A DNA stretch of 64,000 nt. Origin: Halichondria panicea. Taxonomy: Eukaryota; Porifera; Demospongiae; Suberitida; Halichondriidae. The notes under the pieces were generated by a model, which was not told the DNA's origin, did no database searches, and saw only the letters and a program-made list of their open reading frames with translations. Positions 1 to 63,701 of the stretch are shown here, piece by piece; the stretch's first letter is position 1, and every line of letters begins with the position of its first letter. The stretch spans positions 15,062,198 to 15,126,197 of the forward strand of contig NC_087377.1 in NCBI RefSeq assembly GCF_963675165.1, written 5' to 3'. A program made the translations under genes and the position numbers.

Positions 1-3000
1 AACATCTTCTACTATTGTAAACATCCCTTCCAGTTTTGAAGTTTTATCTGTCATTGAAAGAAACAAGGGAATCATAGTTGAAGCTGGCGGAAGTGTCAAT
101 GTGTATGGGATTTCTTCCCATATTTTTAGTGCAGATGCCTATTTAGCATTACCATGTATAAAAATGGCAGTGGATGAGTACGAATATTATGGAATCTCGT
201 ATGATATCCTTAGTAGTAGCTTTCCTAGTGTGATCTTGTTTGTGGCTTGTGAAAATGAAACTGTTGTCAAATTTGATTCCTTAACAATAACACTCGACAG
301 TATGGAAACCTATCAGATGGAAAGTGTTAATGATATCACAGGAACAAGAATAACAAGCTCCAAACCTTTGTCTGTGTTTAGTGGATCTGAGTGTGCTAAT
401 GTTCCTCAAGGTATAGGAGCTTGTGACCACCTGGTTGAACAAGTGCCTCCTACTGTGACATGGGGCTTAAAATTCCTCGTGGCATCTCTCGAGGGTAGAT
501 ATTCTGGTGAACGTATTCGTGTTCTTAGTGCCCGAGCAACAAGTGTAGCTGTGAACTGTAACACTGACATATTAGTCAGTGAATTCCAGTTACAGAGTGG
601 AGGGAGCTTCAGAGAATTTGAATTACCTATTAGCAGTTTCTGTAGTATTGAATCCACTTCTCCAGTACTGGTTGCCCAGTATGCATATGGTGGTGAGAGT
701 GATGGCGTAGGAGACCCATTCATGATGATAATCCCTCCAATTGAGCAGTTTACAAATAACTATTTAGTCGAGAGTTTCACTATTTTCACATCCAACTATG
801 TCACGATGTATGTTTCTTCTGAGTTTTTTCAAGCTGCACAAATATTGTTAGACAATTCCATTGTTTCTGGGTGGCAGAAAGTTGTTTGTTCAAACGGAGA
901 AGTTTGTGGCCACATAAGTCGAACAAGTGTGTCTACTGGAGCACATTCTATCAGCCATCAAAACAGCTCAGCTGTTCTAGGTGTTTCAGTGTACGGATTC
1001 GGCTCTTTCAGTTCTTATGGTTACCCTGGAGGCATGAGATTATCTCCCATATACAATGCAACTGTGGTCAAAATTCTATTTGTTTAAATAACATGGGACA
1101 GTTCAACTGTATAGCTGCTTGAATGGATTTGTTGCTTCATTGTCTGAAACAGATGAAATTGTCTGTACCAGTAAGTTGAGTATTTAATTGAAGATATCAT
1201 TCACTTTTTCCTTCTTTTCATTGCAGTCATAACCTGTCCTCCCTCGACTACTCCTTCCAATGGCTCTGTGACATACAGTGCCATTGCTAATCAAAATGAC
1301 ACCTATGCTTTTGATGTGGTAGCTACCTACAACTGTTTCGCTGGGTTTTCTATTGTCGGCGACAATACAAGGAACTGCACTGGAGATGGCAGTAGCACTA
1401 CTGGTGCTTTTGCTGGTATAGCTCCAATCTGTGCAGGTAGGCTTACACAATATTTCAGGACTTGTGTATACAGGCTTCTCTACTACAGCTATAACATGCC
1501 CTCCACTTTCAAACCCAACAAACGGCTCTGTGTCATATTCAAATGTGCCTGGTCAAGGCAACAGCTATGATTTCAATGTCGAGGCTACCTACAGTTGTGA
1601 TATTGGATATTCACTAGTTGATAACAACACAAGGACTTGCACTGGAGATGGAAGTAGCACTACTGGTTCTTTTGATGGAGAATCACCAACTTGTGAAGGT
1701 GAGTCAATGAAAAACACCAAACTGTACTCCATTTTATTTATATACAGTCATTACCTGCCCTCGCCTGAGTGATCCTTCCAACGGCACTGTGACTTACAAT
1801 GTTGAGAGTGGTAATTTTGAGTTTGGAACGCAAGCAATATACAGTTGTGACAATGGATTTTCTCTGGTTGGTAATACGACCAGAACTTGTACTGGAGATG
1901 GCAGTAGCACTACTAGTTCTTTTGATGGAGAAGCACCAACTTGTGAAGGTGAGTATCCAGTTAACATTCTGCAATAAGAATAATGTATGTGTCTTGTGAC
2001 TCAAGGTGCACTCCATCTTTTTGATTATTCCATGCAGCCATAATGTGCCCTGCTCTAAGTGACCCAATTAATGGTGAAATAGACTATGATGGTGGAGGTA
2101 TTTCAGCTAACAACAACCAATTCCAAATTCCTTTTGGTACGATGGCCACCTACACTTGTGTCATTGGTTTTGATCCGATTGGTAATGACATAAGAACGTG
2201 TACTGGAGATGGTAGTAGCACTACTGGTGCATTTAGTGGAATTGATCCAACATGTGAACGTAAGTGACACCAAATAATTTTAAGCTTACTAACCAATTTT
2301 CAATTATGCAGCCATAACCTGTCCTCCTTTGATGACCCCAACCAATGGCACTGTGTCTTATAGCGGAGTTCCTACTGATGTAAATGGCAACTTGTCGTTC
2401 AATGTAATAGCTACCTACAGTTGTGACACTGGGTTTGCTCTGGTTGATAACAGGTCAAGGATTTGCACCGGAGACGGGATGAGTGTCAATTGTGGCTTTA
2501 ATGGAACAGCTCCAACTTGTGACCGTGAGTGCTCTTCACACACTTAACTTGCAACTGTAAACCCTCTCCTCTCTCCAACTGTCTACAGCTATAACCTGCC
2601 CTGCTCTGGCAGCGCCGAGTAGTAGCAGTATTGACTTTGGAGGAGCCTCATCTGATGGAAACAGCAACTATGCCTTTGATGTGGTAGCTAATTACAATTG
2701 TGATATAATGGATTTTCTCTGGTTGGTAATAGCTCGAGAACGTGTACTGGAGATGACAGTAGCACTACTGGTTCTTTTGATGGAGCAACTCCAACTTGTG
2801 AACGTAAGTGCATCTGTTATTGGACATTTTAACTCCCCTCCCATTCCACTCCACCCATTAGCAATAACTTGCCCTGGTGTGCCCATACCGAACAATGGCA
2901 ATATTAACTTTGGTGGAGCCTCACGTGATGAAAATAGCACATATATTTTTGCTGTGGTGGCTACCTACAGTTGTGACACTGGGTTTTATCTGGTTCGTAA

Positions 3001-3913
3001 CGACTCACGGACTTGCACTGGAGATGGCAGGAGTATTATTGGTACTTTTGATGTGTTGGCTTCAACTTGTCAGCGTGAGTTACATGGCTTTAAATTACAT
3101 GCCGAATCACCCCTATTCTTTTTCCAAAAGCTATCGTCTGCCCTCCCTTGACTATTCCTTCTAATGGTGCTGTGACATACAATTCTACAGCTAGTGAAAA
3201 CGGCGACTTTGATTTGTTTGTGATGGCTACCTACAATTGTGACACTGGATTTTTTCTGGTTGGTGACAACTCAACAACTTGCACTGGAAACGGCAGTAAC
3301 ATTACTGGTGCCTTCGATGGCCTAGTTCCAATCTGTGAAGGTATAAGCTATAATAACAATTTTAGGGATTCAATTTGAATAAGCATTTCTGCTACATATA
3401 CAGCTATAACATGCCCACCACTTTCCAATCCAACCAACGGCTCTGTTTCTTATTCGAATGTGCCTGATCAAAACAACAGCTATGTGTTCAATGTAATGGC
3501 TACCTACAGATGCAACTCTGGGTTTGCTCTGGTTGGTAACAACACAAGGAATTGCTCTGGAGATGGCAGTAGCATTACTGGTGCATTTGATGGAGAGGAT
3601 CTGAAATGTGAAGGTGCAAACAGTATGAGTGTGTACAGATTATAATGACAATAAGGCAAACCGTACATAATTCCTTTAACGACCAAAAAAACATAAATAC
3701 AATTTTAAGTACTCCATAATCATCTCGTAAGTAATGAATTAGTGTTTTTACTCATGCACAGTTTTAGTTGCCTCTTCTGCATCACTTATCCGAGATGTTG
3801 TCATACCTGTTGTGAGTGTGGTGGCTGTACTAGCTCTAGTTGTACTGGGTGGAGCTGTCTCAGTATGGATACATTCAAGTGATAAGCCATCTGTTGAAGT
3901 TAAAAAAGCCTGA
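1..3913 (+). pseudogene. Gene 1: IgGFc-binding/EGF/9-CCP membrane receptor, 5' cut by window, probably broken
   Basis: The window opens inside exon 2 (IgGFc-binding domain plus EGF; exon ends at 1170 before GTAAGT). CCP exons follow at 1227-1436, 1489-1698, 1748-1948, 2038-2259, 2312-2524, 2589-2803, 2862-3074, 3131-3340 and 3404-3613, then a membrane exon at 3762-3913. Exon order and sequence match gene 5 (31.0-35.3 kb) almost base for base. Differences break the frame: two extra TA steps in the EGF part (about 1050 and 1110), one in the sixth CCP exon (about 2703, making it 215 bp), one inside the donor after 3340 (GTATAAG instead of GTAAGC), and four extra bases (CAGT) near 3861 that replace the usual cytoplasmic tail by an unrelated one ending at 3913. 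Either a recently silenced copy or a copy with assembly errors. The family call is firm; whether it is truly dead is not. Confidence 0.75.
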
Positions 3914-4534
3914 AACTGGGACTGCTTATAAACTATTGTAATCTTTAATGGCTTTCATTCTGTGTAAAACTAATAATTATCATATACGTCATTTATATTT
4001 AAGTAGATAGAGGTCTTTGGGTTTGAAACACCAACTTATTATTTAATTTGTGATTCTATTCTTATAAAGAGTAATGCTCTATACCAATGAGCTCACTTAC
4101 ATATTGGTTTCGATCGAGATAAAAAATTTTGTTCATGTACGTCTTGTCCACGTCCACTGACAACACTATAAGTCTCTTTCTCTGTAGTCTGCATGGATGT
4201 CATTAATTTCACATTTTGAAGAATTTATTACCAGCAAAATGTGCTAAACAGTGCAAAATCTACCTGTACCTGAGTGTGAACACCTTGAACATTAATGCGC
4301 ACATAATAACTAGATCTAGCTACGAGCATTGATATTGTGGTGTAAGAAGATGGTTTGACAAAGGGGAGCTTTTACTTGCATGCATGGCCTGGAGGGGGAG
4401 CTGAGACATAATAATAATTATGCACCCCGAAATTATCTTGCAAGATTATCACCAAAAATAAATGAGGACTCCAGCACTTTGCTTCTTAATTTATGCCACT
4501 GCATTGCTGAATGGTCTAAGCATGTATAATTTTT
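3914..4534. other. Spacer after gene 1, shared with spacers after genes 3 and 5
   Basis: No gene seen. The same spacer (blocks such as ACCAGCAAAATGTGCTAAAC and a purine-rich stretch near 4375-4400) recurs after gene 3 (24938-25560), after gene 5 (35261-35865) and at 42404-42980, differing by small indels. It is therefore duplicated along with the genes. Any conserved 3' processing or regulatory role is unproven. Confidence 0.6.
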
Positions 4535-4960
4535 GTAATGCCCAGATTACAAGTAGAATTCTTGAATTGTCCATTGATTCATCTTATATAGATGTGAAGT
4601 GCTGGAAACAAATCTGTCGTTGACTTCCCTAGTTAGTGGTCAAAATGGGATAAGAATTGTTCTTATTCATCCACAAACCCAAAGTTAAGTAATAATTTCA
4701 CGGTCACTTCAATTGATCATGGGAGCATTCAATCATCCAGTTTTTGGGGGGATCTTTGTTGAAGCTGGTGTAAATAATAAGATTAAGGATGTATATTTAA
4801 CTATTTTCTGCGGACATGTTACAGTGTATATATACTATAGGATGGCAGTAGATGAATATACGGATTATGGAATCTCGTATGATGCTGGGATCCTTGGTAT
4901 AGTGCTATCCATATGCATATATGTGTATATGGCTATCCCAGTGCTAAGTGGCAATGATTA
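4535..4960 (+). pseudogene. Decayed copy of exon 1 and the start of exon 2
   Basis: The text TAATGCCCAGATTACAAG at about 4537 matches the end of the signal-peptide exon. Sequence from about 4590 on matches the first third of exon 2 (GTGCTGGAAACAAAT, the CCACAAACCCAAAG block, ATGGCAGTAGATGAATA), with many indels and stops. It lies just upstream of gene 2. The same relic is found upstream of gene 6 (about 35868-36290) and heads wrecked gene 4. A remnant of an older gene copy carried along by block duplication. Confidence 0.7.
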
Positions 4961-5090
4961 AGTGGCTTCACACCTCCTCTGTTAATGAAGTGTGTACTTT
5001 GAACAGTGTCACTCAATAGTGACGTGCCTCCCATACCTTGCAGGTATACTAGCTAGAAGAGTGTGTTCATTAACGTGCTTACAACCACTA

Positions 5091-5097
5091 TATAAAA
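5091..5097 (+). promoter_or_regulatory. Possible TATA box of gene 2
   Basis: TATAAAA lies 57 bp upstream of the gene 2 start codon. The stretch from here to the ATG (AAGACAATCTAGTGAGCTA and following) is almost unchanged in front of gene 6 and recognisable in front of gene 7, while surrounding spacer has drifted more. Suggestive only; recent duplication could also explain the similarity. Confidence 0.4.
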
Positions 5098-5153
5098 TTA
5101 TAGCTAGAGCAAGACAATCTAGTGAGCTAGGCAGCCAGTCACCAGTTGCTAAG

Positions 5154-8100
5154 ATGAGCTACAGAATTGCTATAACTCTGACCCTGACAATAATCGTAAT
5201 CACATTTGTTCAAAAGAAACCATCCTGCAATGCCCAAATCACAGGTAGGATGAAAATCATTACGGTGTATATGCATGATGTAATATATACATGCATAATT
5301 TATATAGGCCTTAAATGAATTGTCTATAATTATATGACTAAATAGATGAGACCCTGTCAAGTGCTGGCAACAAATTTGTGGTCGGTTTCCCAAGAAATTT
5401 TGATGGTGAAGCGGAACAGTTGTTCTTAATAATCACAAACCCAGAGTCAAGTGCTGTTAGCTTCACAGTCACTCCAATTGATTTCAGCGGTAATGTTTCA
5501 GCATCTTCCACTACTGTAAACATCCCATCCAATTTTGAAGTTGTATCTATCAAAGAAAGGAACAAGGGGATCCTTGTTGAAGCTAACAGAAACATCAATG
5601 TGTATGGGCTATCTTTTGATCCAGGTTCTACTGATGCCTATTTAGCATTACCCTGTACTGTAATGGCAGTGGATGAATACGAATATTATGGAATCTCCTA
5701 TGTACCCTTTTGTAGCGTTATTTTGGTGGTGGCTTGCGAAAATGAAACTGTTGTCAAATTCAATAATTCTGTAACAATAACACTCAATAGTATGGAAACG
5801 TATCAGTTTGAAAGTAGTACTCAGGATCTCACAGGAACAAGAATAACTAGCTCCAAACCTTTGTCTGTGTTTAGTGGATCTGATTGTGCTAATGTTCCTC
5901 AAGATATAAACTACTGTGATCACCTGGTTGAACAAGTGCCTCCGACTGTGACATGGGGCTCAAAATTCCTCGTAGCATCTCTCGAGGGTAGATCTTCTGG
6001 TGAACGTATTCGTGTTCTTAGTGCCCGAGCAGCAAGTGTAACTGTGAACTGTAACACTAACGTATCAGTCAGTGAATTCCAGTTACAGAGTGGAGGGAGA
6101 TTCAGAGAATTTGAATTACCTATTGAAAGTTTCTGTAGCATTGAATCCACTTCTCCAGTACTGGTTGCACAGTATGCATATGGTGGTATGAGTGATGGCA
6201 TAGGAGACCCATTCATGATGATAATCCCTCCAATTGAGCAGTTTACAAATAACTATTTAGTCGAGAGTTCCACTAATTTCTCATCCAACTATGTCACGAT
6301 GTATGTTTCTTCTGAGTTTTTTCCAACTGCACAAATATTATTAGACAATTCTGTAGTTACTGGGTGGCAGAAAGTTGTCTGTTCAAATGGAGAGGTTTGT
6401 GGCCTCGTAAGTAGAACAAGTGTGTCTACTGGAGACCATTCTATCTGCCATCAAAACAGCTCAGCTGTTCTAGGTGTTTCAGTGTACGGATTTGCTACAG
6501 CCAGTTCTAGTTCTTATGGTTACCCTGGAGGCATGAGGTTGTCTCCCATACAATGCAACTGTGGTCAAAATTCCATTTGTTTGAATAACATGGGACAGTT
6601 TAATTGTAGCTGCTTGAATGGATTTGGTGCTAAATTTACTGGAACAGATGGATTCACCTGTAATGGTAAGTTGAGTGTCTACGTTATAGATAGAGGTTAT
6701 TTCATTTTTTTTGTAAATGGTGGCTATAATAGAACAACTCCAACTTGAGTGCTCTTCACACACATAGACTAGTGTCTTTTACCCAAAAGAAAACTCTCAC
6801 TACAGTGCAATAGAAACCAGGTGGATATTAAAGGCTGCTACCATGTATTTTGACATGCAGTAAGCATACAAATCACGTTTTTTATATAGTATTAAAGTTG
6901 CTGTGATCAGAGCAAGAATGAATTCACACCAAATATCATTGTCTTCAAGTTTTAATCTCACTAAGAGCTAATACCATGCATGTTGCTTTCTTCAACTTGG
7001 TATTGGAGGCTGTATTTAACTATGGGTGAGTACCTAGATAGTAACCATGGTAATAGTGGAAGGTATTCATGTTTACAATACATTTTGGACGAAGATGCAT
7101 GAACAGCTATTTACAAGAAATGATAGAGTAAGTCGCCGAACCCTGTCAGACATCAATGCGTCATAAAAGTGTGTAATGCATAAACAATTATTGCACACTC
7201 TAATAGATGGCTGTAGCCAGTACAACTGCTTTTACTGCTTACATCTTGTTTTGTTCGTGCATTACACAACCTTTCACCTGTCGCACTTTGATGTCTGACA
7301 GAGTTTAGCGACTTACTCTAGTTGTTTATAGTACATCAATTTCGGTTTCATCTTGTCAGAGTGAGTTACATTGCTATAAATTCTGTAATATAACTGAATC
7401 ACCTCATTCTTTTTCAAAAGCTATCACCTGCCCTCCCTTGACTATTCCTAATGGTTTTGTGACACACAATTCTACTGCTGATGAAAATGGCAACTATGCT
7501 TTTTATGTGAGGGCTACATACAATTGTGACACTGGGTTTTTTCTGGTTGGTAAGAACTCAACAACTTGCACTGGAGATGGAAGTAGCATTATTGGTACTT
7601 TTGATGGCCTAGTTCCAAGATGTGAAGGTAGGCTACTATAAAAAATTTTAGGGACTCAATTTGGTTAATTTTCGTTACATGCAGCTATAACGTGCCCTCC
7701 ACTTTCCAATCCAACCAACGGATCTCTGTTTTATTCGAATGTGCCTGATCAAAACAACAGCTATGCTTTCAATGTAACAGCTACTTACAGCTGCAACTCT
7801 GGGTTTACTCTGGTTGGTAACAAGACAAGGAATTGCTCTGGAGATGGCAGTAGTACTACTGGTTATTTTAATGCGTCTGCTCCAACTTGCAAAGGTAAAT
7901 ACTATAATACTTCTGTGTTTGGAAACAAAGATTGTCTCTTTTTTCAGCAATAACATGCTCTCCTATTGCCGACCCAATTAATGGGACTATAATCTATTCT
8001 GCTGCCGCTGATGGTTTGGGTAATTATGTCTTCAATGTGACGGCTTACCACAGTTGTGACACTGGGTTTGATTTGGTTGGTAACAACCCAAGGACTTGCA

Positions 8101-8478
8101 GTGGAGATGGCAGTATTATTGTTAGTGCTTTTGATGGAGAGCCTATAATCTGTGAAGGTGCATGTGAGTGTGTACAGATTATTGCAATAAAGCATTCTTT
8201 TGAAGGAAAAATAATTATTTAGCAAAGACATGCACTTTTTATTTTCTATAGTTGCAGTTGCCTCATCTTCATCACTTATCCTCGATGTTGTCATACCTGT
8301 TGTGAGTGTGGTGGCTGTACTAGCTCTAGTTGTACTGGGTGGAGCTGTCTATGGATACATTCAAGTGTTTGCTCATCTGTGGAAGTTAAAAGATCCACAA
8401 ACTGGAACTGCCAAACTGTGGAACGCTTGGAACCACGGAAAAGAAGAACTATGTAACAGTAGAAGTATGGAACAGTAG
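5154..8478 (+). CDS. Gene 2: IgGFc-binding/EGF/3-CCP type I membrane receptor
   Basis: Join 5154-5244, 5346-6665, 7421-7627, 7685-7894, 7948-8157, 8252-8478; all junctions GT-AG and phase 1; about 754 aa. Exon 1 is a signal peptide (MSYRIAITLTLTIIVIT...). Exon 2 (440 codons) carries an IgGFc-binding-like domain recognisable by LFLIITNPESSAVSFTV, DAYLALPC, TGTRITSSKPLSVFSGSDC, CDHLVEQVPPTVTWG and DPFMMIIPPIEQFTNNYLV, then an EGF module with six cysteines (CNCGQNSIC...FNCSC...FTC). Three four-cysteine CCP domains follow, then a helix (VVSVVAVLALVVLGGAVYG) and a cytoplasmic tail of about 38 residues ending SRSMEQ. The 755-bp intron 2 holds a piece of a lost CCP exon (about 6716-6760). By family likeness an extracellular recognition or adhesion protein; ligand unknown. 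Best-preserved relative is gene 6. Confidence 0.82.
6666..7420. other. Long intron 2 of gene 2 with relic CCP end
   Basis: From about 6716 the sequence copies the 3' end of a CCP exon and its donor side (AATGGTGGCT..., CTCCAACTTGAGTGCTCTTC), but the codon before the donor is damaged. The rest matches intron 2 of gene 6 and the corresponding part of wrecked gene 4. The sequence suggests an ancestral gene with more CCP exons here. No other gene seen. Confidence 0.6.
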
Positions 8479-8924
8479 GAACCATGGAATGCTGAGAACC
8501 ATGGAACCATAACAAACAGTAGGAACTATTAAGGTGTTTCAGTCTGTGTCAACATGTTTACTATATATGTATTAGAGGTATATATTACGTTATTATCGTT
8601 GATTGCAATTTTTGACAGAATTGATTTAATTCCACACAGTAATTTTATCATCATTGTGCTAATTTACTCGATTGTCGATCGATCACTGAGCTCAGTTTTA
8701 GTTATAATTATAATTGGAATTAACTTATAACAACTATAATAATTGACATCTGGGAAATACCAAACTGGCATGCATGCATGATGGTATGAATAACTATCTT
8801 AACGAAGAAGAAGTACCGAGACATCTGGACTCGGTACAACTGAGATCAAATTTCTATATAACCAGAGTAGCTCAACAACAAAATATTGAATTACTCCTAC
8901 TAGATCCAATAACAAGAAAAATCA
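8479..8924. other. 3' flank of gene 2
   Basis: Starts with low-complexity GGAACCATGGAA-type repeats that continue the pattern of the coding tail. The later part (TCGATCGATCACTGAGCTCA, GACATCTGG) recurs after gene 6 (40680-40925) and in wrecked gene 4 (28965-29130). No coding potential recognised. Confidence 0.5.
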
Positions 8925-9290
8925 TCTTGTAATGCCCACACATCACAGGTAACACTTTTTGTATATACAGATTAACCTCCCTCCTATTATATAGACTGAT
9001 GTGACAATGTTAATAAGTGCTGGCAGTAAAGGTGGTTCCCCATATCACAAATCCAGAGCTAAGTGCATTCGTTTCTATCAGTGGGAATGTTTTCAACTCT
9101 TCAACTGTATAGTAAGCATTTCCCTCAATTTTATCTATAAATGAAAGAAACAAAGGGATTCTTGTTGAAGCCAACGGAAACGTCAATGTGTATGGGATAT
9201 GTAACTGTATACACTGTCAGATGCCTATTTAGTACCGACCGTACGCGTGTACCAGAATGGCAGTAGATGAATACGAATAAAAAGACCTCT
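8925..9290 (+). pseudogene. Decayed copy of exon 1 end and exon 2 start, upstream of gene 3
   Basis: GTAATGCCCACACATCACAG with a GTAACA donor at about 8930-8953 copies the end of exon 1. From about 8995 fragments of exon 2 follow (AAGTGCTGGCAGTAAA, CACAAATCCAGAGCTAAGTG, GGGATTCTTGTTGAAGCC, ATGGCAGTAGATGAATACGAATA). Much of the exon is deleted. The same relic lies upstream of gene 5, there split by an insertion of about 1 kb (29360-30365). Confidence 0.65.
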
Positions 9291-9837
9291 CTCATAATCA
9301 TAATTTATACCGTAATGTGTATTGCAGAACCATATTTGCAAGGGCTGTTCTATATTATTATCCAAGATTTAATGTGCATTTTGACAATAGACAATTTCCA
9401 GCATTTGGTTGTAGGTTTTTAGGCCCCCATGCGCTCTGCCACTCATGATAATGTTTATACTATTGCTTTCCTCAATATGTGTGTACCTTTCAATACGATT
9501 TTGTTTTGGTGAAGGTTACTTTGAAGCAGTGTCACTACCTCTCATACCTCCCATACACCGGCCAGTGTCATGTTGACAGCCAATCCAATCTATAACCTTG
9601 CTAGCCTTAGGAAGCCATGCTGCCTTAGACTCGTGTTGTGCAATAAAGTGTACATGAATCTTTGTGTGCAACGGTGAGTATCTGCATGCATTGGTGACAT
9701 GCCTTCCTTGCCAGGAAATAGGTAACTAAGACATGCAGTCTTAAAGGCTAATAATTATACTGTGTGCATAAATGTGTGCTTATACAACTACTAGCTATAG
9801 CTATATAGCTTAGGTATAGTTAGTAACAGTTGCTATA
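9291..9837. other. Spacer and presumed promoter region of gene 3
   Basis: No gene seen. The stretch matches 30480-31017 upstream of gene 5, including CTTAGGAAGCCATRCT, ATGCCTTCCTTGCCAGGAAAT and the AGCTTAGGTATAGTTA stretch just before the start codon, so both genes probably share a promoter type different from that of genes 2 and 6. Confidence 0.45.
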
Positions 9838-12800
9838 ATGACCTACAGAATTGCTACTTTGACCCTGTCAATAGTCATAATCACATTTGCTCACAAGAAA
9901 GCATTCTGTAATGCCCAAATCACAGGTAGGACTGAGTTTTTGTATATATATGTATGTAGTAGTCTTGAATTGTCCATTGATCGTAGATGTGACCTTATCA
10001 AGTGCTGGAAACAAATTCGCCATTGGTTTTCTTAGAAATTTTGGTCCAGGAGATAATGATTTGTTTTTGTTCATCACAAACCCAGAGTCAAGTGCTGTCA
10101 GTTTCACAGTCACTCCAACTAATCTTAGTGGGAGCGTTTCTATCTCCTCTTCTGCTACACTAAACATTTCTTCCAGTTTTGAAGTTTTATCTGTCACTGA
10201 AAGAAACAAGGGGATTATCGTTGAAGCTGGCGGAAGTGTCAATGTGTATGGAATTTCTTTTGGTATTCTTAGTACAGATGCCTATTTAGCATTACCCTGT
10301 ATTATAATGGCTGTGGATGAGTATGAATATTATGGACTCTCCTATTACACCATTAGTAGTAGCCGTCCTAGTGTTGTTTTGTTAGTAGCTTGTGAAAATG
10401 GAACTGTTGTCAAGTACGATTCTTCAACAATAACACTCAATAGTATGGAAACCTATCAGATTGAAAGTGATAATGATCTCACAGGAACAAGAATAACTAG
10501 CTCCAAACCTTTGTCTGTGTTTAGTGGATCTGATTGTGCTAGTGTTCCTCAAAGTATAAGGTTGTGTGATCACCTGGTTGAACAAGTGCCTCCGACTGTG
10601 ACATGGGGCTCAAAATTCCTTGTAGCATCTCTCGAGGGTAGATCTTCTGGTGAACGTATTCGTGTTCTTAGTGCCCGAGCAGCAAGTGTAGCTGTGAACT
10701 GCAACACTGGGGTGTCTGTTGGTGAATTCCAGTTACAAAGTGGAGGGAGCTTCAGAGAATTTCAAATCCGTATTAACAGTTTCTGTAGCATTGAATCAAC
10801 TTCTCCAGTACTGGTTGCCCAGTATGCATATGGTGGTAACAGTGATGGCGTGGGAGACCCATTTATGATGATAATCCCTCCAATTGAGCAGTTTACAAAC
10901 AACTATTTAGTTGAAGTGCTTTCTATTTTCGCCTCCAACTATGTCACGATATATATTGCTTCTGAGTTTTTTCAAACAGCGCAAATATTATTAGACAATT
11001 CTGTTGTTACTGGCTGGAGGAATGTTCTCTGTTCAAGTGGAGAAGTGTGTGGCCACATCAGTAAAACAAGTGTGTCTGCTGGAACTCATTCTATCCGCCA
11101 TCAAAACAGCTCAGCTGTTCTAGGTGTTTCAGTGTACGGACTCAATACAAATAGTTCTTACGGTTACCCTGGAGGCATGAGATTATCTCCCATACAATGT
11201 AACTGTGGTCAAAATTCTATTTGTTTGAATAACATGGGGAAATTTAACTGTAGTTGCTTGAATGGATTTGGTGCCTTATTTTCTGGAAGTGATGAAATTG
11301 TCTGTAAAGGTAGGTCGAGTGTTCAAATGTTATTTTACTGATAGTGTCTGTTCACCATAGCCATAACTTGTCCTCCCACATTCGCTCCAATCAATGGATC
11401 TGTGACATACAATTCTACTGCTGATGAAAACGACACCTATGCCTTTGATGTAGTGGCCTACTACAACTGTGACACTGGGTACTCTCTGGTTGGTGACAGC
11501 ACAAGAACTTGCACTGGAAATAGAAACAGCAATGTTGGTGCATTTGATGGACTATCTCCAAATTGTGAAGGTACAATATAGCATAGGTACTCACACATGA
11601 ATTCCTTTTTATGATCATTTCTGCTACAGCTATAACATGCCCTCCACTTTCTAATCCAACCAACGGCTCCGTTTTTTATTCGAATGTGCCTGGTCAAAAT
11701 AACTGCTACGATTTCAATGTAATGGCTACCTACAATTGTGACACTGGGTTTTCTCTGGTTGGTGATCAAACAAGGACGTGTACTGGAGATGGCAACAGCA
11801 CTACTGGTGCTTTTAATAGAGTGTCTCCAATTTGTAAACGTAAGTTCATACTTCTGTTTTGAAAATTTAAAACTCCCTTCAATCTCCTTTCAGCCATAAC
11901 ATGCCCCGCTCTGCTCTTTCCGAACAATGGCAGTATTGATTTTGGTGGAGCCTCACCAGAAGAAAACAGCACCTATGCTTTTAATGTGGTTGCTACCTAC
12001 AATTGTGACACTGGGTTTTCTCTTGTTGGTGATCAAACAAGGACGTGTACTGGAGATGGCAACAGCACTACTGGTGCTTTTGATAGATTGTCTCCAACTT
12101 GTGAACGTAAGTGCATACTTTTATTTTGATATCTAAAAACTCCCTTCATCTCCTTCCAGCCATAACATGCCCCGCTCTGCTCTTCCCAAACAACGGCAGT
12201 ATTGATTTTGGTGGAGCCTCACATGATGAAAACAGCACCTATGCATTTAATACGGTTGCTAGCTACAATTGTGACACTGGGTTTTCTCTGGTTGGTGATC
12301 AAACAAGGACGTGTATTGGAGATGGCAACAGCACTACTGGTGCTTTTAATAGAGTGTCTCCAACTTGTGAACGTAAGTTCATACTTCTGTTTTGAAAATT
12401 TAAAACTCCCTTCAATCTCCTTCCAGCCATAACATGCCCCGCTCTGCTCTTTCCGAACAATGGCAGTATTGATTTTGGTGGAGCCTCACCAGAAGAAAAC
12501 AGCACCTATGCTTTTAATGTGGTTGCTACCTACAATTGTGACACTGGGTTTTCTCTTGTTGGTGATCAAACAAGGACGTGTACTGGAAATAGCAACAGCA
12601 CTACTGGAGCTTTTGATAGATTGTCTCCAACTTGTGAACGTAAGTGCATACTTCTATTTTGAGAATCTAAAAACTCCTTCCTATCTCCTTCCAGCCATAA
12701 CGTGCCCCGCTCTGCTCTTCCCAAACAACGGAAGTATTGATTTTGGTGGAGCCTCACATGATGAAAACAGCACCTATGCATTTAATACGGTTGCTAGCTA

Positions 12801-40616: not shown

Positions 40617-40924
40617 GAACCATGGAATGCTGAGAACCATGGAACCATAACAAACAGTAGGAACTATTAAGGTGTTTCAGTCTGTGTCAACATGTTTACT
40701 ATATATGTATATTAGAGGTATATATTACGTTATTATCGTTGATTGCAATTGTTGACAGAATTGATTTAATTCCACACAGTAATTTTATCATTGTGCTAAT
40801 TTACTCGATTGTCGATCGATCACTGAGCTCACTTTTAGCTTTAATTATAATTTGTTATAACAACTATAATAATTGACATCTGTGGAATACCAAACTGGCA
40901 TGCATGTATGATGGTATGAATAAC
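40617..40924. other. 3' flank of gene 6
   Basis: Same GGAACCATGGAA low-complexity text and following spacer as after gene 2. It stops at AATAACTA (about 40925), where it joins abruptly to the middle of a CCP exon. Confidence 0.55.
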
Positions 40925-43065: not shown

Positions 43066-43110
43066 AGGTAAATACTATATGTTTGGAAACAAAGATTGTC
43101 TCTTTTTCAG

Positions 43111-52032: not shown

Positions 52033-52716
52033 TTCATTGGTACTTTTTTTATTCATTATTATACGAGAAAAGAATCAGAATGATAACACCGTTGCCATCG
52101 TTACTGCCATGTTGTGTACGTTAACTACTATTTACTTTAACCAAAGAATGCAGCCTCCAATAAAACACATGACCAAAAGAAAGCTCTTAATAATTATACA
52201 AGTACAGTGCAATTAGAAACTAGGTGGATATTTAGGGCTATAATAATTATTATATCACGTATTTTGTACAGTCATGCAGTACATAACGTAAGCATACAAA
52301 TCATACATATTCACGATCACAACAATCACCTTGTCTTCTAGAAGATTCCACTAAAGACTTTCTTTTGATACCATGTTGCTTTCTACAACTTAGTATTGGA
52401 GGCTGCATTTAACTATATTGTTGAAGGTAAGTCATACTTATTTGATCACAGCTAACGCACATAATAAGCAATGAGCCCCATCCAACGTAAACGTTTTCCA
52501 TAAAGCGTGTCTGCTTCTCTGTTGAGTGAACGGATGGCGCTTATAGGACTCTTTGCATAGGGGGATGTGCTATGCGCTATGCGATAGGCCCTATGCTTTT
52601 TTTCATCCTCTTTAATTCTTTAAAAATGTGCCTATTATTCTCATAAAAAATTCGATTATTCTCATAAAAATCAGATTTTTCCCAAGAAATGCGACATAAT
52701 ATACAAAATTAAGACG
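52033..52716. other. Spacer after gene 8, paralogous to that after gene 7
   Basis: Same order of blocks as 46791-47650 but without the 204-bp MITE. It ends at AAATTAAGACG, where it joins directly to the middle of a membrane exon. No gene seen. Confidence 0.5.
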
Positions 52717-52843
52717 TGTGGCTGTACTAGCTCTAGTTGTACTAGGTGGAGCTGTTTATGGATTAAAGTGTTTGCTCATCTGTTAAATTTAAAAGATTCA
52801 CAAACAGGAACTGCTAAATTGTGGAACGCTTGGATGGAACAGT
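52717..52843 (+). pseudogene. Half membrane exon (long-tail type) after gene 8
   Basis: Starts abruptly at GTGGCTGTACTAGCTC, continues through GGAGCTGTTTATGG and a long-tail end (AACTGCTAAATTGTGGAACG ... GAACAGTAG). The acceptor and first 15 or so codons are missing, and a deletion after TATGGATT changes the frame. Confidence 0.7.
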
Positions 52844-54333: not shown

Positions 54334-56282
54334 ATGAGCTACAGAATTGTGAGTTTGACCCTGACAATATTCATAATCACATCTGCTCACAAGAAAGTAT
54401 CCTGCAATGCCCAAATCTCAAGTAAGACCGAATCCATTATAATTATAGAGATGTATCTTTGATTTGTCCATTGATCCTAGATGTGACCTCATCAAGTTCT
54501 GGCAGTAAATTTGTGGTCGGTTTCCCAAGAAATCTAGGTGAATTAGGAGTATCCCAGTTGTTCTTGCTCATCACAAACCCAGAGTCAAGTGCTGTTAGTT
54601 TCACAGTCACTTCAATTGATAGCAATGGGAGCGTTTCTAACGCTTCAACTACAGTAAGTATTCCATCCAGTTTTGAAATTATGTCTGTAAATGAAAGGAC
54701 AAAGGGGATCCTTGTTGAAGCTAACGGAAACGTCAATGTGTATGGGATTTCCTTTGAAGAATTTTCTGCAGATGCTTATTTAGCATTACCCTGTACTGTA
54801 ATGGCAGTGGATGAATTTGAATATTATGGAATCTCCTATGACACCTTAGATGCAAGACCTAGTGTGATTTTGTTGGTGCCTTGCGAAAATGAGACTGTTC
54901 TAGAATTCAATTCCTCAACAATAACACTCAATAGTATGGAAACATATCAGATTGAAAGTGTTAATGATCTCACAGGAACAAGAATAACAAGCTCCAAACC
55001 TTTGTCTGTGTTTAGTGGATCTGATTGTGCTAATGTTCCAGAAGACGTATTCGCTTGTGATCACCTGGTTGAACAAGTGCCTCCGACTGTGACATGGGGG
55101 TCAAAATTCCTTGTGGCATCTCTCGAGGGTAGATCTTCTGGTGAACGTATCCGTGTTCTTAGTACCCGAGCAGCAAGTGTAGCTGTGAACTGTAACACTG
55201 TTGTATCAGTCAGCGAATTCCAGTTACAGAGTGGAGGGAGCTTCAGAGAATTTGAAATACCTACCAACAGTTTTTGTAGCATTGAATCCACTTCTCCAGT
55301 ACTAGTCGCCCAGTATGCGTATGGTAGTGCGAGTGATGGCGTGGGAGACCCATTCATGATGATAATTCCTCCAATTGAGCAGTTTACAAATAATTATTTA
55401 GTCGAGAGTTTAAGTAATTTCGCATCCAACTATGTCGCGACGTATGTTTCTTCTGAGTTTTTTCAAACTACACAAATATTATTAGACAATTCCATTGTTA
55501 CTGGGTGGCAGAATGTTACATGTTCAAGTGGAGAAGTTTGTGGCCACATAAGTAGAACAAATGTGTCCTCTGGAGATCATTCTATTCGCCATCAAAACAG
55601 CTCAGCTGTTCTAGGTGTTTCAGTGTACGGATTCAGCTCAAGCAATTCTTATGGTTACCCTGGAGGCATGAGATTATCTCCCATACAATGCAACTGTGGT
55701 CAAAATTCTATTTGTTTAAATAACATGGGACAGTTCAACTGTAGCTGCTTAAATGGATTTATTGCTACATTGTCAGTAACTAATGACTTTGTATGTAAAG
55801 GTAGGTTGAGTTCAACATTAATATCGTATATATCGGGAAATTATCATAGATGCAAATTTTCGCCATTTGGCTCCAGAGCCCTCAACAGAAATTATCGTGG
55901 GTTCTAATCGGGTACTAATTTTAGCGAATTTGTAAACGCTAAATAATTAAGTACGCGCTAATAATTAATGAATCTCGAAACTTTTTTCTTTTTTCTGATG
56001 TGCTTTTATAATTATTTGTATATGTATTTTTGAGCTAAGCAAGCTAGCCCTTTTTTCATCTAATCTGACTCCAAACTTTCCAATTTCAACCTTAAAACTT
56101 TTGCTAAGGAATTTGCTACAAATTCTCCAAAATTAGTACCCACTACCCTGAAAATACCGGTGCGTGAGAGTTTATCCCGGTTTTAATTCTTGTGTTACTC
56201 GAAAAACACGAAATTTTGCAACCCACGAAAATTTCCCGCTATGCAGTAGAAGGTCGCTATGCCTCAGTCCACATGCGCAAGT

Positions 56283-56327
<45 letters not shown>

Positions 56328-59300
56328 CTGCTACAGCTGCTCAACTGACAAGGATTAATCAAGTGCAAGTTTCTAGTCATGCTTTCTTGGACTTTAATTC
56401 GTGGATTTGCAAATAATGCTTTGTTCTGAGTTTATCATAATTATGCAATACCGATACCATTGCAGAAGAGTACATAGCAAAACTTGTCTATGGAGTATTG
56501 CTACTCTACTTTGCACTAGAACCCTAGCTATTAATTGGTAGCAGCTGTAAGAGTGAGAAGAGAGCTGCAGGGCTCTAGCTAGCTGCTGATGCAACCATAA
56601 TAATTTTAGACTTGAACCTTTGGAATCGATCGTTTTTAACACGATGATTCTGGATTCTACCTGCATGCAGCAAATTATTTAATGCATCATGATATAATGT
56701 GTGTAGCTTTATGTAGATTTGGCACCTCCACCGAGGCATCAGTACCAGCAGTGCTTTCATTATTTATTTCTTATTTCACCATAGCCATAACCTGTCCTCC
56801 ATTGACTGCTCCTACTAATGGATCTGTGATATACAGTTCTACTGCTGATGAAAATGGAACCTATGCCCTGGATGTGGTTGCGACCTACAACTGTGACAAT
56901 GGATTTTCTTTGGCTGGTGACCAAGCAAGGACGTGTACTGGAGATGGCAACAGCACAACTGGTGCTTTTAATGGATTGCCTCCAACTTGTGAATGTAAGT
57001 GCATACTTCTAATCTAAAAACTCCCTTCAATCTCCTTCCAGCCATAACATGCCCCGCTCTGCTCTTCCCGAACAACGGCAGTATTGACTTTGGTGTAGCC
57101 TCACCTGATGAAAACAGCACTTATACTTTTAATACGGTTGCTACCTACAACTGTGACACTGGGTTTTCTCTGGTTGGCAACCAAACAAGGACGTGTACTG
57201 GAGATGGCAACAGCACTACTGGTGCTTTTGATAGATTACCTCCAACTTGTGAACGTAAGTGTATACTTCTGTTTTGAGAATCTAAAAACTTCATTCAATC
57301 TCCTTTCAGCCATAACATGCCCCACTCTGCTTTTACTGAACAACGGCAGTATTGACTTTGGTGTAGCCTCACCTGATGAAAACAGCACATATGCATTTAA
57401 TGCGGTTGCTAACTACAACTGTGACACTGGGTTTTCTCTGGTTGGTGACCAAACAAGGACGTGTACTGGAGATGGCAACAGCACTACTGGTGCATTTGAT
57501 AGATTACCTCCAACTTGTGAACGTAAGTGTATAATTCTGTTTTGAGAATCTAAAAACTCCTTCCATCTCCAAATTCCATGCAGCCATAACATGCCTCGCT
57601 CTGCTATTCCCGAACAACGGCAGTATTGACTTTGGTGTAGCCTCACCTAATGAAAACAGTACCTATGCTTTTAATACGGTTGCTACCTACAACTGTGACA
57701 CTGGATTTTCTCTGATGGGTGACCAAACAAAGACGTGTACTGGAGATGGCAACAGCACTACTGGTGCATTTGATAGATTACCTCCAACTTGTGAGCGTAA
57801 GTGTATACTTCTGATTTGAGAATCTAAAAACTCCCTTCAATCTCCTTCCAGCCATAACATGCCTCGCTGTGCTCTTCCCGAACAACGGCAGTATTGACTT
57901 TGGTGGAGCTTCACCTGATGAAAACAGCACATATGCGTTTAATGCGGTTGCTAACTACAACTGCGACACTGGGTTTTCTCTGGTTGGTGACCAAACAAGG
58001 ACGTGTACTGGAGATGGCAACAGCACTACTGGTGCTTTTGATAGATTACCTCCAACTTGTGAACGTAAGTGTATACTTCTGATTTGAGAATCTAAAAACT
58101 CCCTTCAATCTCCTTCCAGCCATAACATGCCCCGCTCTGATCTTCCCAAACAATGGCAGTATTGACTTTGGTGTAGCCTCACCTGATGAAAACAGTACCT
58201 ATGCTTTTAATGCGGTTGCTAACTACAACTGTTACACTGGGTTTTCTCTGGTTGGTGACCAAACAAGGACTTGTACTGGAGATGGCAACAGCACTACTGG
58301 TGCTTTTGATAGATTACCTCCAACTTGTGAACGTAAGTGTATACTTTTGTTTTGAGAATCTAAAACTCTTTCTCATCTCCAAATTCCATGCAGCCATAAC
58401 ATGCCCCGCTCTGATCTTCCCGAACAATGGCAGTATTGACTTTGGTGTAGCCTCACCTAATGAAAACAGTACCTATGCTTTTAATACGATTGCTACCTAC
58501 AACTGTGACGCTGAGTTTTCTCTGGTTGGTGACCAAAAAAGGACCTGTACTGGAGATGGCAACAGCACTACTGGTGCTTTTGATAGATTACCTCCAACTT
58601 GTGAACGTAAGTGCATACTTCTGTTTTGAGAATCTAAAAACTCCCTTCAATCTCCTTCCAGCCATAACATGCCCCGCTGTGCTCTTCCCGAACAACGGTA
58701 GTATTGACTTTGGTGGAGATTCACCTGGTGAAAACAGCACTTATGCGTTTAATGCGGTTTCTACCTACAACTGTGACTCTGGGTTTTCTCTGGTTGGTGA
58801 CCAAACAAGGACGTGTACTGGAGATGGCAACAGCACTACTGGTGCTTTTGATAGATCGTCTCCAACTTGTGAACGTAAGTGTATACTTCTGATTTGAGCA
58901 TCTAAAAACTCTCTTCAATCTCCTTCCATGCAGCCATAACATGCCCAGCTCTGCTCTTCCTGAACAACGGCAGTATTGACTTTGGTGGAGCTTCACCTGA
59001 TGAAAACAGCACATATGCGTTTAATGCAGTTGCTAACTACAACTGTGACACTGGGTTTTCTCTGGTTGGTGACCAAACAAGGACTTGTACTGGAGATGGC
59101 AACAGCACTACTGGTGCTTTTGATAGATTACCTCCAACTTGTGAACGTAAGTGTATAATTCTGTTTTGAGAATCTAAAAACTCATTCCCATCTCCAAATT
59201 CCATGCAGCCATAACATGCCCCGCTTTGCTCTTCCCGAACAATGGCAGTATTGACTTCGGTGTAGCCTCACCTGATGGAAACAGTACCTATGCTTTTAAT

Positions 59301-62300
59301 GCGGTTGCTACCTACAACTGTGACACTGGGTTTTCTCTGGTTGGTGACCAAACAAGGACCTGTACTGGAGATGGCAACAGCACTACTGGTGCTTTTGATA
59401 GATTACCTCCAACTTGTGAACGTAAGTGTATACTTCTGATTTGAGAATCTAAAAACTCCCTTCAATCTCCTTCCATGCAGCCATAACATGCCCCGCTCTG
59501 CTCTTCCCGAACAACGGCAGTATTGACTTTGGTGTAGCCTCATCTGATGAAAACAGCACATATTCGTTTAATGCGGTTGCTAACTACAACTGTGACACTG
59601 GGTTTTCTCTGGTTGGTGACCAAACAAGGACGTGTACTGGAGATGGCAACAGTACTGCTGGTGCTTTTGATAGATCGTCTCCAACTTGTGAACGTAAGTG
59701 TATAATTCTGTTTTAAACTCCTTCCCATCTCCAAATTCCATGCAGCCATAACATGCCCCGCTCCGGTCTTCCTGAACAACGGCAGTATTGACTTTGGTGG
59801 AGCTTCACCTGATGAAAACAGCACATATGCGTTTAATGCGTTTGCTAACTACAACTGTGACACTGGGTTTTCTCTGGTTGGTGACCAAACAAGGACTTGT
59901 ACTGGAGATGGCAACAGCACTACTGGTGCTTTTGATAGATTACCTCCAACTTGTGAACGTAAGTGTATAATTCTGTTTTGAGAATCTAAAAACTCATTCC
60001 CATCTCCAAATTCCATGCAGCCATAACATGCCCCACTTTGCTCTTCCCGAACAATGGCAGTATTGACTTCGGTGTAGCCTCACCTGATGGAAACAGTACC
60101 TATGCTTTTAATGCGGTTGCTACCTACAACTGTGACACTGGGTTTTCTCTGGTTGGTGACCAAACAAGGACCTGTACTGGAGATGGCAACAGCACTACTG
60201 GTGCTTTTGATAGATTACCTCCAACTTGTGAACGTAAGTGTATACTTCTGTTTTGAGAATCTAAAAACTCTTTCCCATCTCCAAATTCCATGCAGCCATA
60301 ACTTGCCCCGCTCTGCTCTTCCCGAACAATGGCAGTATTGACTTCGGTGTAGCCTCACCTGATGAAAACAGTACCTATGCTTTTAATGCGGTTGCTACCT
60401 ACAACTGTGACGCTGGGTTTTCTCTGGTTGGTGACCAAACAAGGACCTGTACTGGAGATGGCAACAGCACTACTGGTGCTTTTGATAGATCGTCTCCAAC
60501 TTGTGAACGTAAGTGTATACTTCTGATTTGAGCATTTAACTTCAATCTCCTTCCATGCAGCCATAACATGCCCCGCTCTGCTCTTCCCGAACAACGGCAG
60601 TATTGACTTTGGTGGGGCTTCACCTGATGAAAACAGCACATATGCGTTTAATGCGGTTGCTAACTACAACTGTGACACTGGGTTTTCTCTGGTTGGTGAT
60701 CAAACAAGGACGTGTACTGGAGATGGCAACAGTACTGCTGGTGCTTTTGATAGATCGTCTCCAACTTGTGAACGTAAGTGTATACTTCTGATTTGAGAAT
60801 CTAAAAACTCCCTTCAATATCATTCTAGCCATAACATGCCCTGCTCTGCTCTTCCCGAACAACGGCAGTATTGACTTTGGTGGAGCTTCACCTGATGAAA
60901 ACAGCACATATGCGTTTAATGCGGTTGCTAACTACAACTGTGACACTGGGTTTTCTCTGGTTGGTGACCAAACAAGGACATGTACGGGAGATGGCAACAG
61001 CACTACTGGTGCTTTTGATAGATTACCTCCAACTTGTGAACGTAAGTGTATAATTCTGTTTTGAGAATCTAAAAACTCCTTCCCATCTCCAAATTCCATG
61101 CAGCCAAAACATGCCCCGCTCTGCTATTCCCGAACAATGGCAGTATTGACTTTGGTGGAGCCTCACCTGATGAAAACAGCACTTATGCTTTTAATACGGT
61201 TGCTACCTACAACTGTGACACTGGGTTTTCTCTGGTTGGCGACCAAACAAGGATGTGTACTGGAGATGGCAACAGCACTGGTGCTTTTGATAGATTACCT
61301 CCAACTTGTGAACGTAAGTGCATACTTTTATTTTGAAATCTAAAAACTCCCTTCAATCTCCTTCTAGCCATAACATGCCCCGGTCTGCTTTTCCCGAACA
61401 ACGGCAGTATTGACTTTGGTGGAGCCTCACCTGATGAAAACAGTACCTTTATTTTTAATGCGGTTGCTACCTACAACTGTGACACCGGGTTTTCTCTGGT
61501 TGGCAACCAAACAAGGACGTGTAATGGAAATGGCAACCGCACTACTGGTGCTTTTGATAGATCGTCTCCAACTTGTGAACGTAAGTGCATACTTCTATTT
61601 TGAAATCTAATAACTCCCTTCAATCTCCTTCCAGCCATAACATGCCCCGCTCTGCTCTCGCCAAACAATGGCAGTATTGACTTTGGTGTAGCCTCACCTG
61701 ATGAAAACAGCACTTATGCATTTAATGCGGTTGCTAACTACAACTGTGACACTGGGTTTTCTCTGGTTGGTGACCAAACAAGGACGTGTACTGGAGATGG
61801 CAGTACAACTACTGGTGCTTTTGATAGATTACCTCCAATTTGTGAACGTAAGTGTATACTTCTGATTTGAGAATCTAAAAACTCCCTTCAATCTCATTCC
61901 AGCCATAACATGCCCCGCTGTGCTCTTCCCGAACAACGGCAGTATTGACTTTGGTGTAGCCTCACCTGATGAAAACAGTACTTATGCTTTTAATACGGTT
62001 GCCACTTACAACTGTGATACTGGGTTTTCTCTGGTTGGGGACCAAACAAGGACCTGTACTGGAGATGGCAACAGCACTGGTGCTTTTGATAGATCGTCTC
62101 CAGCTTGTGAACGTAAGTGCATACTTTTATTTTGAAATCTAAAATCTCCCTTAAATCTCCTTCCAGCCATAACTTGCCCCGCTCTGCTCTTCCCGAACAA
62201 CGGCAGTATTGACTTTGGTGGAACCCTACCTGATGAAAACAGTACCTATGCTTTTAATGCGGTTGCTACCTACAACTGTGACACTGGGTTTTCTCTGGTT

Positions 62301-63701
62301 GGCGATCAAACAAGGACGTGTACTGGAGATAGCAACAGCACTGCTGGTGTTTTTGATAGAGTGTCTCCAACTTGTGAACGTAAAAATACATAGTTTTGTT
62401 TTCAAATCAAAAACTGCCTCTTATCTCCTTCCAGCCATAACGTGCCCTACTCTGTTCTTCCCGAACAACGGCAGTATTGACTTTGGTGGAGCCTCACCTA
62501 ATGAAAACAGCACCTATGCTTTTAATACGGTTGCTACCTACAACTGTGACACTGGGTTTTCTCTGATTGGTGACCAAACAAGGATGTGTACTGGAGATGG
62601 CAGCAGAACTACCGGTGCTTTTAATAGAATGACTTCAATTTGTGAACGTAAGTGCATACTTCTGTTTTAAAATCTAACATGTATATCCTCTAGCCATAAC
62701 ATGCCCCGCTCTGCTCTTCCCGAACAATGGCAGTATTGACTTTGGTGGAGCCTCACCTGATGAAAACAGCACCTTTGCTTTTAATACGATTGCTAACTAC
62801 AACTGTGACACTGGGTTTTCTCTGGTTGGTGATCAAACAAGGACGTGTACTGGAGATGGCAACAGAACTGCTGGTGTTTTTGCTGGATCAACTCCAACTT
62901 GCATTAAAAGTGAATTTGAATAATTATAATTATGATCGGCAATTGTCATTTTTGTTTTTCCAGCAATAACATGTATTCCTCTTGCCGACCCTCTTCATGG
63001 GACTGTATCTTATTCTGCTGCCGCTGATAGAATTGGCAAGTATGTCATTAATGTGACGGCTACATACAGTTGTGACACTGGGTTTTCTCTGGTTGGTAAC
63101 CATACAAGGACATGTACTGGAGATGGTAATAGCACTACTGGTGCTTTTAATAAATTGTCTCCAACTTGTGAACGTGAGTGCACACTTTGTTTTGAAAATC
63201 TAAAGCTCCTTCCCTATCCCTCCAGCCATAACGTCCCTCGCTCTGCTCTTCCCGAATAACGGCAGTATTATTAACTTAAGCTTTCGTGGAGCCTCACCTG
63301 TTGAAAACAGCACCTATGTGTTTAATGCGGTGGCTACCTACATTTGTCACGCAGGGTTTACTCTGGTTGGTAACAACACAAGGACTTGCGGTGGAGATGG
63401 TAATAGCATTACGGGTGAATTTGATGGAGAAGCTGCAACTTGTGAAGGTGAGTGTACATGTATAGATTATAATGATTATAGCTATTAGCAATAGGTGACA
63501 TTGATACCACAATTGTTTTTTCCCAAAGTCTTAGTTATCTCATCTTCATCACTTATCCTCGATGTTGTCATACCTGTTGTGAGTGTGGTGGCTGTACTAG
63601 CTCTAGTTGTACTGGGTGGAGCTGTTTATGGATACATTCAAGTGATAAGCCATCTGTTGAAGTTAAAAGATCCACAAACTGGAACAACTAAATTATTGTA
63701 A
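54334..63701 (+). CDS. Gene 9: IgGFc-binding/EGF/25-CCP membrane receptor
   Basis: Exon 1 54334-54421; exon 2 54481-55800; CCP exons 56785-56994, 57042-57254, 57310-57522, 57584-57796, 57852-58064, 58120-58332, 58394-58606, 58662-58874, 58934-59146, 59209-59421, 59481-59693, 59746-59958, 60021-60233, 60296-60508, 60561-60773, 60829-61041, 61104-61313, 61368-61580, 61635-61847, 61903-62112, 62167-62379, 62435-62647, 62694-62909, 62964-63173, 63226-63447; membrane exon 63529-63701. All phase 1, no internal stop, about 2301 aa. Most CCPs are near copies (CPALLFPNNGSIDFGG, ENSTYAF, GNSTTGAF), each with about three N-glycosylation sequons, so the product should be a long, heavily glycosylated stalk bearing the IgGFc-binding head. 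The last CCP lacks its first cysteine (ITSLAL for ITCPAL); the sixth lacks the middle one (NCYTG keeps C, but DTG is changed to YTG). Short tail ending GTTKLL. Confidence 0.82.
55826..56246. mobile_element. MITE-like element in intron 2 of gene 9
   Basis: Left TATATCGGGAAATTATC and right, reversed, TACTGCATAGCGGGAAATTTT are imperfect inverted ends. Its right end (ACCCACGAAAATTTC) resembles the inside of the 236-bp MITE in gene 6, so the two may be related. Boundaries approximate. Confidence 0.5.
56246..56735. mobile_element. GT-bearing repeat element in intron 2 of gene 9
   Basis: CTATGCCTCAGTCCACATGC, a (GT)n run at 56286-56324, AGACTGCTACAGCTGCTCAA, and right end CCTCCACCGAGGCATCAG. Same order as the gene 8 copy but longer; it lies directly after the preceding MITE-like element. 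Confidence 0.5.
56785..63447 (+). repeat. 25-exon CCP tandem array of gene 9
   Basis: Exon-plus-intron units of about 270 bp, nearly all with 213-bp exons. Two intron types alternate irregularly (acceptor side CTCCTTCCAG or CCAAATTCCATGCAG). Larger duplications are visible, for example 58934-59421 and 59746-60233, 812 bp apart and almost identical. Growth by unequal exchange is in frame because of phase 1 borders. Confidence 0.85.

Follow-up and report, generated by a model that had tools for sequence, protein, structure and literature searches.

The stretch of DNA analyzed here (the window hereafter; 64,000 bases of the sponge Halichondria panicea, contig NC_087377.1, positions 15,062,198 to 15,126,197) holds, on its plus strand, one family of putative receptor genes, of which eight have a head and a ninth is dead. 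The genes follow a common plan, in which a hydrophobic start segment precedes a head encoded by one exon of roughly 1.3 kb, EGF-like end included, followed by CCP repeats with one exon each and, mostly, by a membrane exon with a short tail. Searches with the window's own head and CCP sequences (tblastn) placed every match within the window on plus-strand frames. Exon chains are full or nearly full in genes B, C, E, F, G, H and I, gene A is truncated by the left edge and broken, gene D is dead, and there are fragments besides. An earlier note on this DNA had described such a single-strand tandem cluster of seven intact or nearly intact genes, one broken gene, one dead gene and fragments, and both the tblastn matches and the spliced models agree with it. 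Its statement that stalk length (3 to 31 CCPs) and presence of the membrane exon vary is likewise borne out by counting gene by gene. The CCP exons number 9 in A, 3 in B, 31 in C, 9 in E, 3 in F, 3 in G, 4 in H and 25 in I (87 in the eight head-bearing genes, plus remnants). Five genes (B, C, E, F and I) have an intact membrane exon, that of A is frameshifted in the tail portion, gene H retains a broken one, and tblastn across the window found none in gene G.

Gene A (1-3938), whose signal exon lies outside the window, comprises a head (2-1166) matching the Pfam family PF17517, or IgGFc_binding (E = 7.5e-54), nine CCP exons (1229-3612) and a membrane exon (3767-3938) located by tblastn, with frameshifts near the EGF-like part (about 1110), in one CCP (about 2704) and in the tail exon. 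Gene B (5154-8478; PF17517 E = 3.1e-55) has its signal exon at 5154-5244, head at 5346-6665, three CCP exons at 7421-8157 and membrane exon at 8258-8478, and its spliced model runs for 752 amino acids to a stop. Gene C (9838-24937) has a signal exon at 9838-9925, a head at 9987-11309, 31 CCP exons between 11361 and 24596 and a membrane exon at 24771-24937, and is open for 2784 amino acids to a stop provided that the halves flanking a minisatellite form one gene, which requires the splicing-out of a 4.5-kb intron holding opposed minisatellite arrays. The dead gene D (25934-28931) consists of head remnants (25934-27238) and CCP remnants (28555-28931) seen as tblastn fragments. Gene E (31021-35260), the copy of A in the second of two duplicated blocks, has a signal exon, a head, nine CCP exons and a membrane exon from 35093 (end approximate); its head carries a one-base frameshift that may be real or a sequencing error. 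Gene F (36491-40616), the copy of B, has a signal exon at 36491-36581, a head at 36672-37988, three CCP exons at 39553-40292 and a membrane exon at 40390-40616, and is open for 754 amino acids to its stop. Gene G (44462-46746; PF17517 E = 5.7e-52), with a signal exon, a head at 44619-45929 and three CCP exons, and gene H (49066-52821; PF17517 E = 9.2e-54), with a signal exon, a head at 49213-50532, four CCP exons to 51988 and a broken membrane exon at 52718-52821, are open through the last CCP (681 and 749 amino acids, respectively) and lack an intact last exon. Gene I (54334-63701; PF17517 E = 6.4e-52), with a signal exon, a head at 54481-55800, 25 CCP exons at 56785-63447 and a membrane exon at 63535-63701, is open for 2297 amino acids to a stop. 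No internal stop interrupts the spliced models of B, C, F and I.

The profile searches proposed in the earlier note confirmed both of its domain assignments. PF17517 matched all seven heads scanned (A, B, C, F, G, H and I, that of E being left out) over their full or nearly full length, with E values from 3.1e-55 to 6.4e-52 and 177-188 bits against a gathering cut-off of 25.6 bits. Sushi scored above its cut-off in both CCP exons that were scanned singly and three times in the spliced protein of gene F, and the four-cysteine Sushi pattern is visible in the CCP translations. The module at the end of the head stays under the Pfam cut-off (EGF_CA in six of the seven heads at 18-21 bits against 27), and the EGF-like label therefore rests on the cysteine pattern. 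An AlphaFold2 model of the head (29 sequences) is all-beta, with a predicted local distance difference test score (pLDDT) of 77 and a predicted template modelling score (pTM) of 0.82. Searching the PDB with this model gave no match at E ≤ 0.001, the template modelling (TM) scores of the listed matches being at most 0.20, and a sequence search for solved structures returned only EGF-like matches to Notch. Four viral structure matches pass E 0.001; their TM-scores are at most 0.16, and we did not use them as fold relatives. Viral contigs yielded no relative of the head or of the one CCP tested.

Homologues of the head were found in bacteria, at 22 loci among 84,980 bacterial and archaeal genomes, with 26-34% identity in the best segment. 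All 22 loci entered the structural modelling and the alignment, and 8 of the 22 were scanned with Pfam as full frames. PF17517 was recovered in each of these eight, with no CCP or EGF listed in any, and Por_Secre_tail, the type IX secretion tail, appeared in six of them at E < 0.01 (above its cut-off in two), which indicates that bacteria too carry this domain on secreted proteins. In the sponge genes, EGF and CCP modules accompany the head. The bacterial homologues are mostly Bacteroidota-like (Kapabacteria, Ignavibacteria, Chlorobiota), with single occurrences in Methylomirabilis, Goldbacteria and Pirellula. The idea that loops are sites of insertion and deletion was tried on the same alignment and rejected, as four of seven chosen head sites lie within 3 residues of a bacterial indel site against 38% of residues (P = 0.25).

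Across the seven gene models, AG precedes every CCP and Ig exon and an in-phase GT follows it, some of the donors being weak. These exons are of phase 1-1, and CCP modules can hence be added or lost without breaking the frame. Signal peptides were assigned by eye, and the N-terminal 19-residue hydropathy threshold is passed by B, F and G only. At the other end of the protein, hydropathy plots reveal a helix near the C-terminus of B, C, F and I but of neither G nor H, and the tail measures 24-42 residues. Pfam recognised no signalling domain in the tail of gene F when its spliced protein was scanned.

The long stalks are rich in N-glycosylation sequons, with 81 in gene C against 44 in shuffled sequences and 76 in gene I against 34, both counts exceeding the maximum of 500 shuffles, in a statistic for which the CCP repeats are not independent. 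A near-invariant tryptophan (G-x-W) is typical of the CCP module; in the six open proteins the pattern occurs once, in an odd CCP of gene C at 15190. This CCP stands beside the Ig domain of the same gene (15188-15861 for the two) and is unlike the other CCPs. The Ig exon itself (15602-15861, I-set-like; Ig_3 E = 6.3e-12) is the sole strong tblastn match of that domain in the window, and together with the odd CCP it may derive from another gene. The minisatellite in the gene C intron (16578-20437, unit of 27 bases) was resolved by Tandem Repeats Finder into opposed arrays at 16578-18002 and 18042-20437; there, 16423-17988 matches 20570-19002 in inverted orientation with 84% identity between the arms, forming a large imperfect palindrome. 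Gene C looks like a fusion, since its right half aligns with E at 89% identity and its left CCPs with those of gene I at 88-89%.

The history of the locus includes a tandem duplication of 1-8796 and 31327-40926, with 93-94% identity along most of the two blocks, and synonymous divergence (dS) between heads across the family ranges from 0.10 to 0.37. The heads are mosaics. A purpose-written permutation scan of the GENECONV type identified a tract between B and G at head codons 6-129 that was equalled in none of 1000 permutations (P < 0.001), although the nearest relative of B elsewhere is F, and a tract between B and F at codons 182-446 (P = 0.002); tracts between F and G and between H and I were marginal (P = 0.045 and 0.046). 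Along the B and F heads, five consecutive 120-base windows (5291-5890) diverge by 8-13%, against 0-2% just upstream and 1-6% downstream, and in the pair A and E a window with 16% divergence adjoins one with none. Residue 284 presents two states distributed crosswise between the duplicated pairs (A like F, E like B), which fits exchange. In head codons 165-245, synonymous differences fall near zero in places, against 0.3-0.5 in other head regions, a drop that could stem from conversion homogenising the copies or from constraint acting on the DNA. A first comparison had pointed to faster divergence in exons than in introns of the duplicated copies; tested on the complete aligned blocks, the difference did not hold (Fisher P = 0.053 and 0.059, with opposite signs), and only the local divergent patches were therefore kept.

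Maximum-likelihood site models were applied to seven heads (A, being partial, was left out), using the 433 of 447 columns that remained once gapped columns were dropped. The comparison of M1a with M2a gave twice the log-likelihood difference (2dlnL) as 43.9, with about 4% of sites at ω = 4.7. When the head was divided into three segments with their own trees, the values were 8.5, 32.5 and 12.1 (sum 53.1), and leaving out E, or both B and E, gave 42.8 and 37.7, respectively. The null maxima were 4.1 in 20 plain simulations and 6.4 in 45 mosaic simulations with three different trees. Examination of sites with posterior probabilities above 0.9 identified head residues 20, 93, 191, 192, 284 and 388, all six located in loops predicted by AlphaFold2, and residue 430 in the EGF part. 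Variable head columns also lie near one another more often than expected (29 close pairs, expectation 19.5; P = 0.001). Diversifying selection thus apparently acts on a few loop residues, with statistical support from these models that is confounded by the factors considered below.

Taken together, the anatomy of the genes, suited to a receptor or adhesin at the cell surface whose binding head sits on a stalk of varying length, and the history of the locus, consistent with duplication and exchange keeping the family diverse, lead us to favor the reading of the cluster as a diversifying surface-recognition family, with a probability of roughly 0.55. Copies that swap segments and differ at a few positions predicted to be exposed are what one would look for where changing partners have to be recognised. 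The head would extend on its stalk of 3-31 CCPs and probably contact a ligand through its exposed loops; the stalk, glycosylated if the sequons are used, would set the reach, and one helix with a short tail in which no signalling domain is recognised would anchor the protein in the membrane. Contact may then lead to adhesion, to uptake or to signalling through a partner protein. New specificities would arise from tandem duplication and from the exchange of head segments, by gene conversion or unequal crossing-over, and further ones from changes at a few loop residues and from the gain or loss of whole CCP exons. We infer that such proteins would recognise microbes in the first place and relatives in the second. 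The more specific proposal of an animal system of non-self recognition, with a single-exon IgGFc_binding head shared with bacterial surface proteins, a glycosylated CCP stalk, loops reassorted by conversion and receptor sets that differ between individuals, seems to us unlikely. The earlier note had proposed a fast-evolving family of recognition receptors in an early animal, possibly with an immune or self/non-self role. What stands of this is a tandem, changing family of surface proteins, now backed by duplications and, in the head, by exchange resembling conversion and by apparent diversification at single sites, and our analyses add to it the bacterial homologues of the head, the conversion-like exchange between heads, purifying selection with a few loop sites apparently under diversifying selection, and the sequon-rich long stalks.

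Several results weigh against the reading of a diversifying recognition family. The one-ratio ω of the heads is 0.42, indicating purifying selection overall, and none of the 28 pairwise dN/dS values (0.34-0.59) exceeds 0.59, so that the fast pace proposed in the note applies to gene content and to a small number of residues but not to the head as a whole. Head columns with at least five amino acids number 7 of 433 against a null mean of 4.9 (P = 0.21), and those with at least four number 22 against 22.7. The codons under apparent selection are often two or three bases apart, and multi-base changes or unseen donors could therefore inflate the site test. Enrichment of variable sites in loops is moreover expected in most proteins. 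The stalk gave a signal of its own in the site test (2dlnL = 17.3, sites 31 and 65, on 25 of the 87 CCPs picked for equal length and single type), and the diversifying signal is hence not special to the head. With regard to the remaining evidence, no donor for the divergent patch between A and E was found among the copies in the window, exons are overall no more divergent than non-exon DNA between the duplicated copies, and sequon counts in the four short stalks do not rise above the shuffle maximum, while the excess in the long stalks is computed over repeats that are not independent.

Some of these observations would be equally at home if the genes encoded structural or adhesive matrix proteins, in which the head cross-links, as it would in the proteins of mucus and bio-adhesives, the copies serve dosage and reach, and their differences reflect drift and conversion. 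This is the best placed of the alternatives, and we give it a minority chance. PF17517, common to all heads scanned here, is named after FCGBP, a secreted, gel-forming mucus protein that binds IgG Fc and is built of VWD repeats, and the dominance of purifying selection, the agreement of variable-column counts with the null model and the lack of a recognised signalling domain in the tail of gene F all suit a structural role. The sponge genes differ from FCGBP in that EGF, CCP modules and a membrane helix come after the head, and the scan of spliced gene F, the one spliced protein scanned, found only PF17517, Sushi and a weak EGF_CA, with no VWD domain. The earlier note had set its reading against a head belonging to a structural matrix family, and half of that is what was found, by name, the Pfam domain being common with FCGBP. 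Limpet adhesive proteins have been reported to be homologous to IgGFc-binding protein (PMC7333891), but this link may rest on the VWD regions, which the window proteins lack as far as the scan of spliced gene F goes. The membrane exon in most copies and the concentration of the site-model signal at predicted loops also argue against a matrix function.

The genes could instead encode markers of self and non-self that differ between individuals, as proposed for Ciona vCRL1, a polymorphic CCP-domain product regarded as a candidate marker of individuality (PMC5465252, PMC6916515), or as in Botryllus fester and FcoR, multi-copy families of clustered surface receptors that bear a Sushi domain and are involved in histocompatibility (PMC12065747). 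The general plan is the same, combining a variable head or Ig with CCP or Sushi modules, one or a few helices, a short tail and clustered copies (PMC5465252, PMC12065747), and the haplotype-like block duplication and segment exchange would suit such a role. These likenesses are taken from published descriptions. The parts of the vCRL1 description consulted do not mention a PF17517 head, and the account of fester and FcoR gives one Sushi plus Ig domains, with three helices in fester and long tails bearing signalling motifs in FcoR (PMC12065747), whereas the window genes have 3-31 CCPs, one helix and a tail of 24-42 residues. Variation among paralogues within the window says nothing on polymorphism between individuals, and none of the 22 related loci found in the search among bacterial and archaeal genomes is animal. 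We regard allorecognition as quite unlikely. A role in gamete recognition, or in a cell-type-specific adhesion code with each copy in its own tissue, is improbable; tandem copies with a conserved exon plan and unequal stalk lengths would suit it, but no observation speaks specifically in its favor. Least probable of all is an assembly artefact in which two divergent haplotypes placed end to end account for part of the copy number, because, although 93-94% identity between the duplicated blocks could be reached in a very heterozygous animal, the order breaks directly after the pair, where the heads that follow, those of C and G, are about 18% apart (dS 0.31) and are not alleles, which makes a simple end-to-end joining unlikely, a conversion-like tract connects B with G over the presumed junction, and the remaining heads are too diverged for alleles (dS up to 0.37).

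If the genes are a diversifying recognition family, it is by analogy with vCRL1, fester and FcoR, SRCR arrays and Sushi-bearing sponge genes that a function in defence is suggested. Of 296 sponge SRCR genes, which encode multi-module receptors, 158 are reported to lie in tandem arrays (PMC10855680), and sponge genes with Sushi domains have been reported to respond to microbial patterns (PMC6208332). In the sponge and sea-urchin SRCR expansions the recognition module is SRCR, against PF17517 here. A figure legend in a paper on the sponge Halichondria names IgGFc-binding among the domains of receptor models, and that legend does not describe the present architecture. No paper on head-plus-CCP genes of this make came up in searches of an open-access library, which lacks most subscription journals. 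Were the recognition reading true, an early animal would be using a recognition module beyond NLR, SRCR, TIR, lectin and Ig, diversified by segment exchange, and the origin of variable surface recognition would become testable in one compact locus. The occurrence of the head in bacteria raises the question of the source of the domain in animals. Under a structural role, the locus would be merely an interesting cluster of adhesive or mucus genes.

The remaining features of the window are mostly debris of the same family. Degenerate head fragments were detected by tblastn at 4535-4880 (E = 7e-06, 38% identity), 9044-9295 (E = 8e-11) and 43895-44197 (E = 4e-10). Between genes F and G, orphan pieces extend over 40923-43592 (tblastn) and include a broken CCP (40923-41101), a CCP at 41858-42064 with a membrane exon at 42236-42400, and a further pair formed by a CCP at 43113-43319 and a broken membrane exon at 43434-43592; all these pieces lie on the plus strand. 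A Pfam scan of eight intergenic open frames gave no family above cut-off, the CCP exon included as a control being matched, and no tRNA or Rfam family was found in the window. The observed/expected ratio of CpG is 0.40, a depletion of the kind found in methylated animal genomes. A tandem repeat with a 49-base unit (4.4 copies, 29377-29591) adjoins the dead gene D, and another with a 16-base unit (GAACCATGGAACAGTAA-like), at 8430-8507 and 40568-40645, overlaps the ends of B and F that contain the stop codon.

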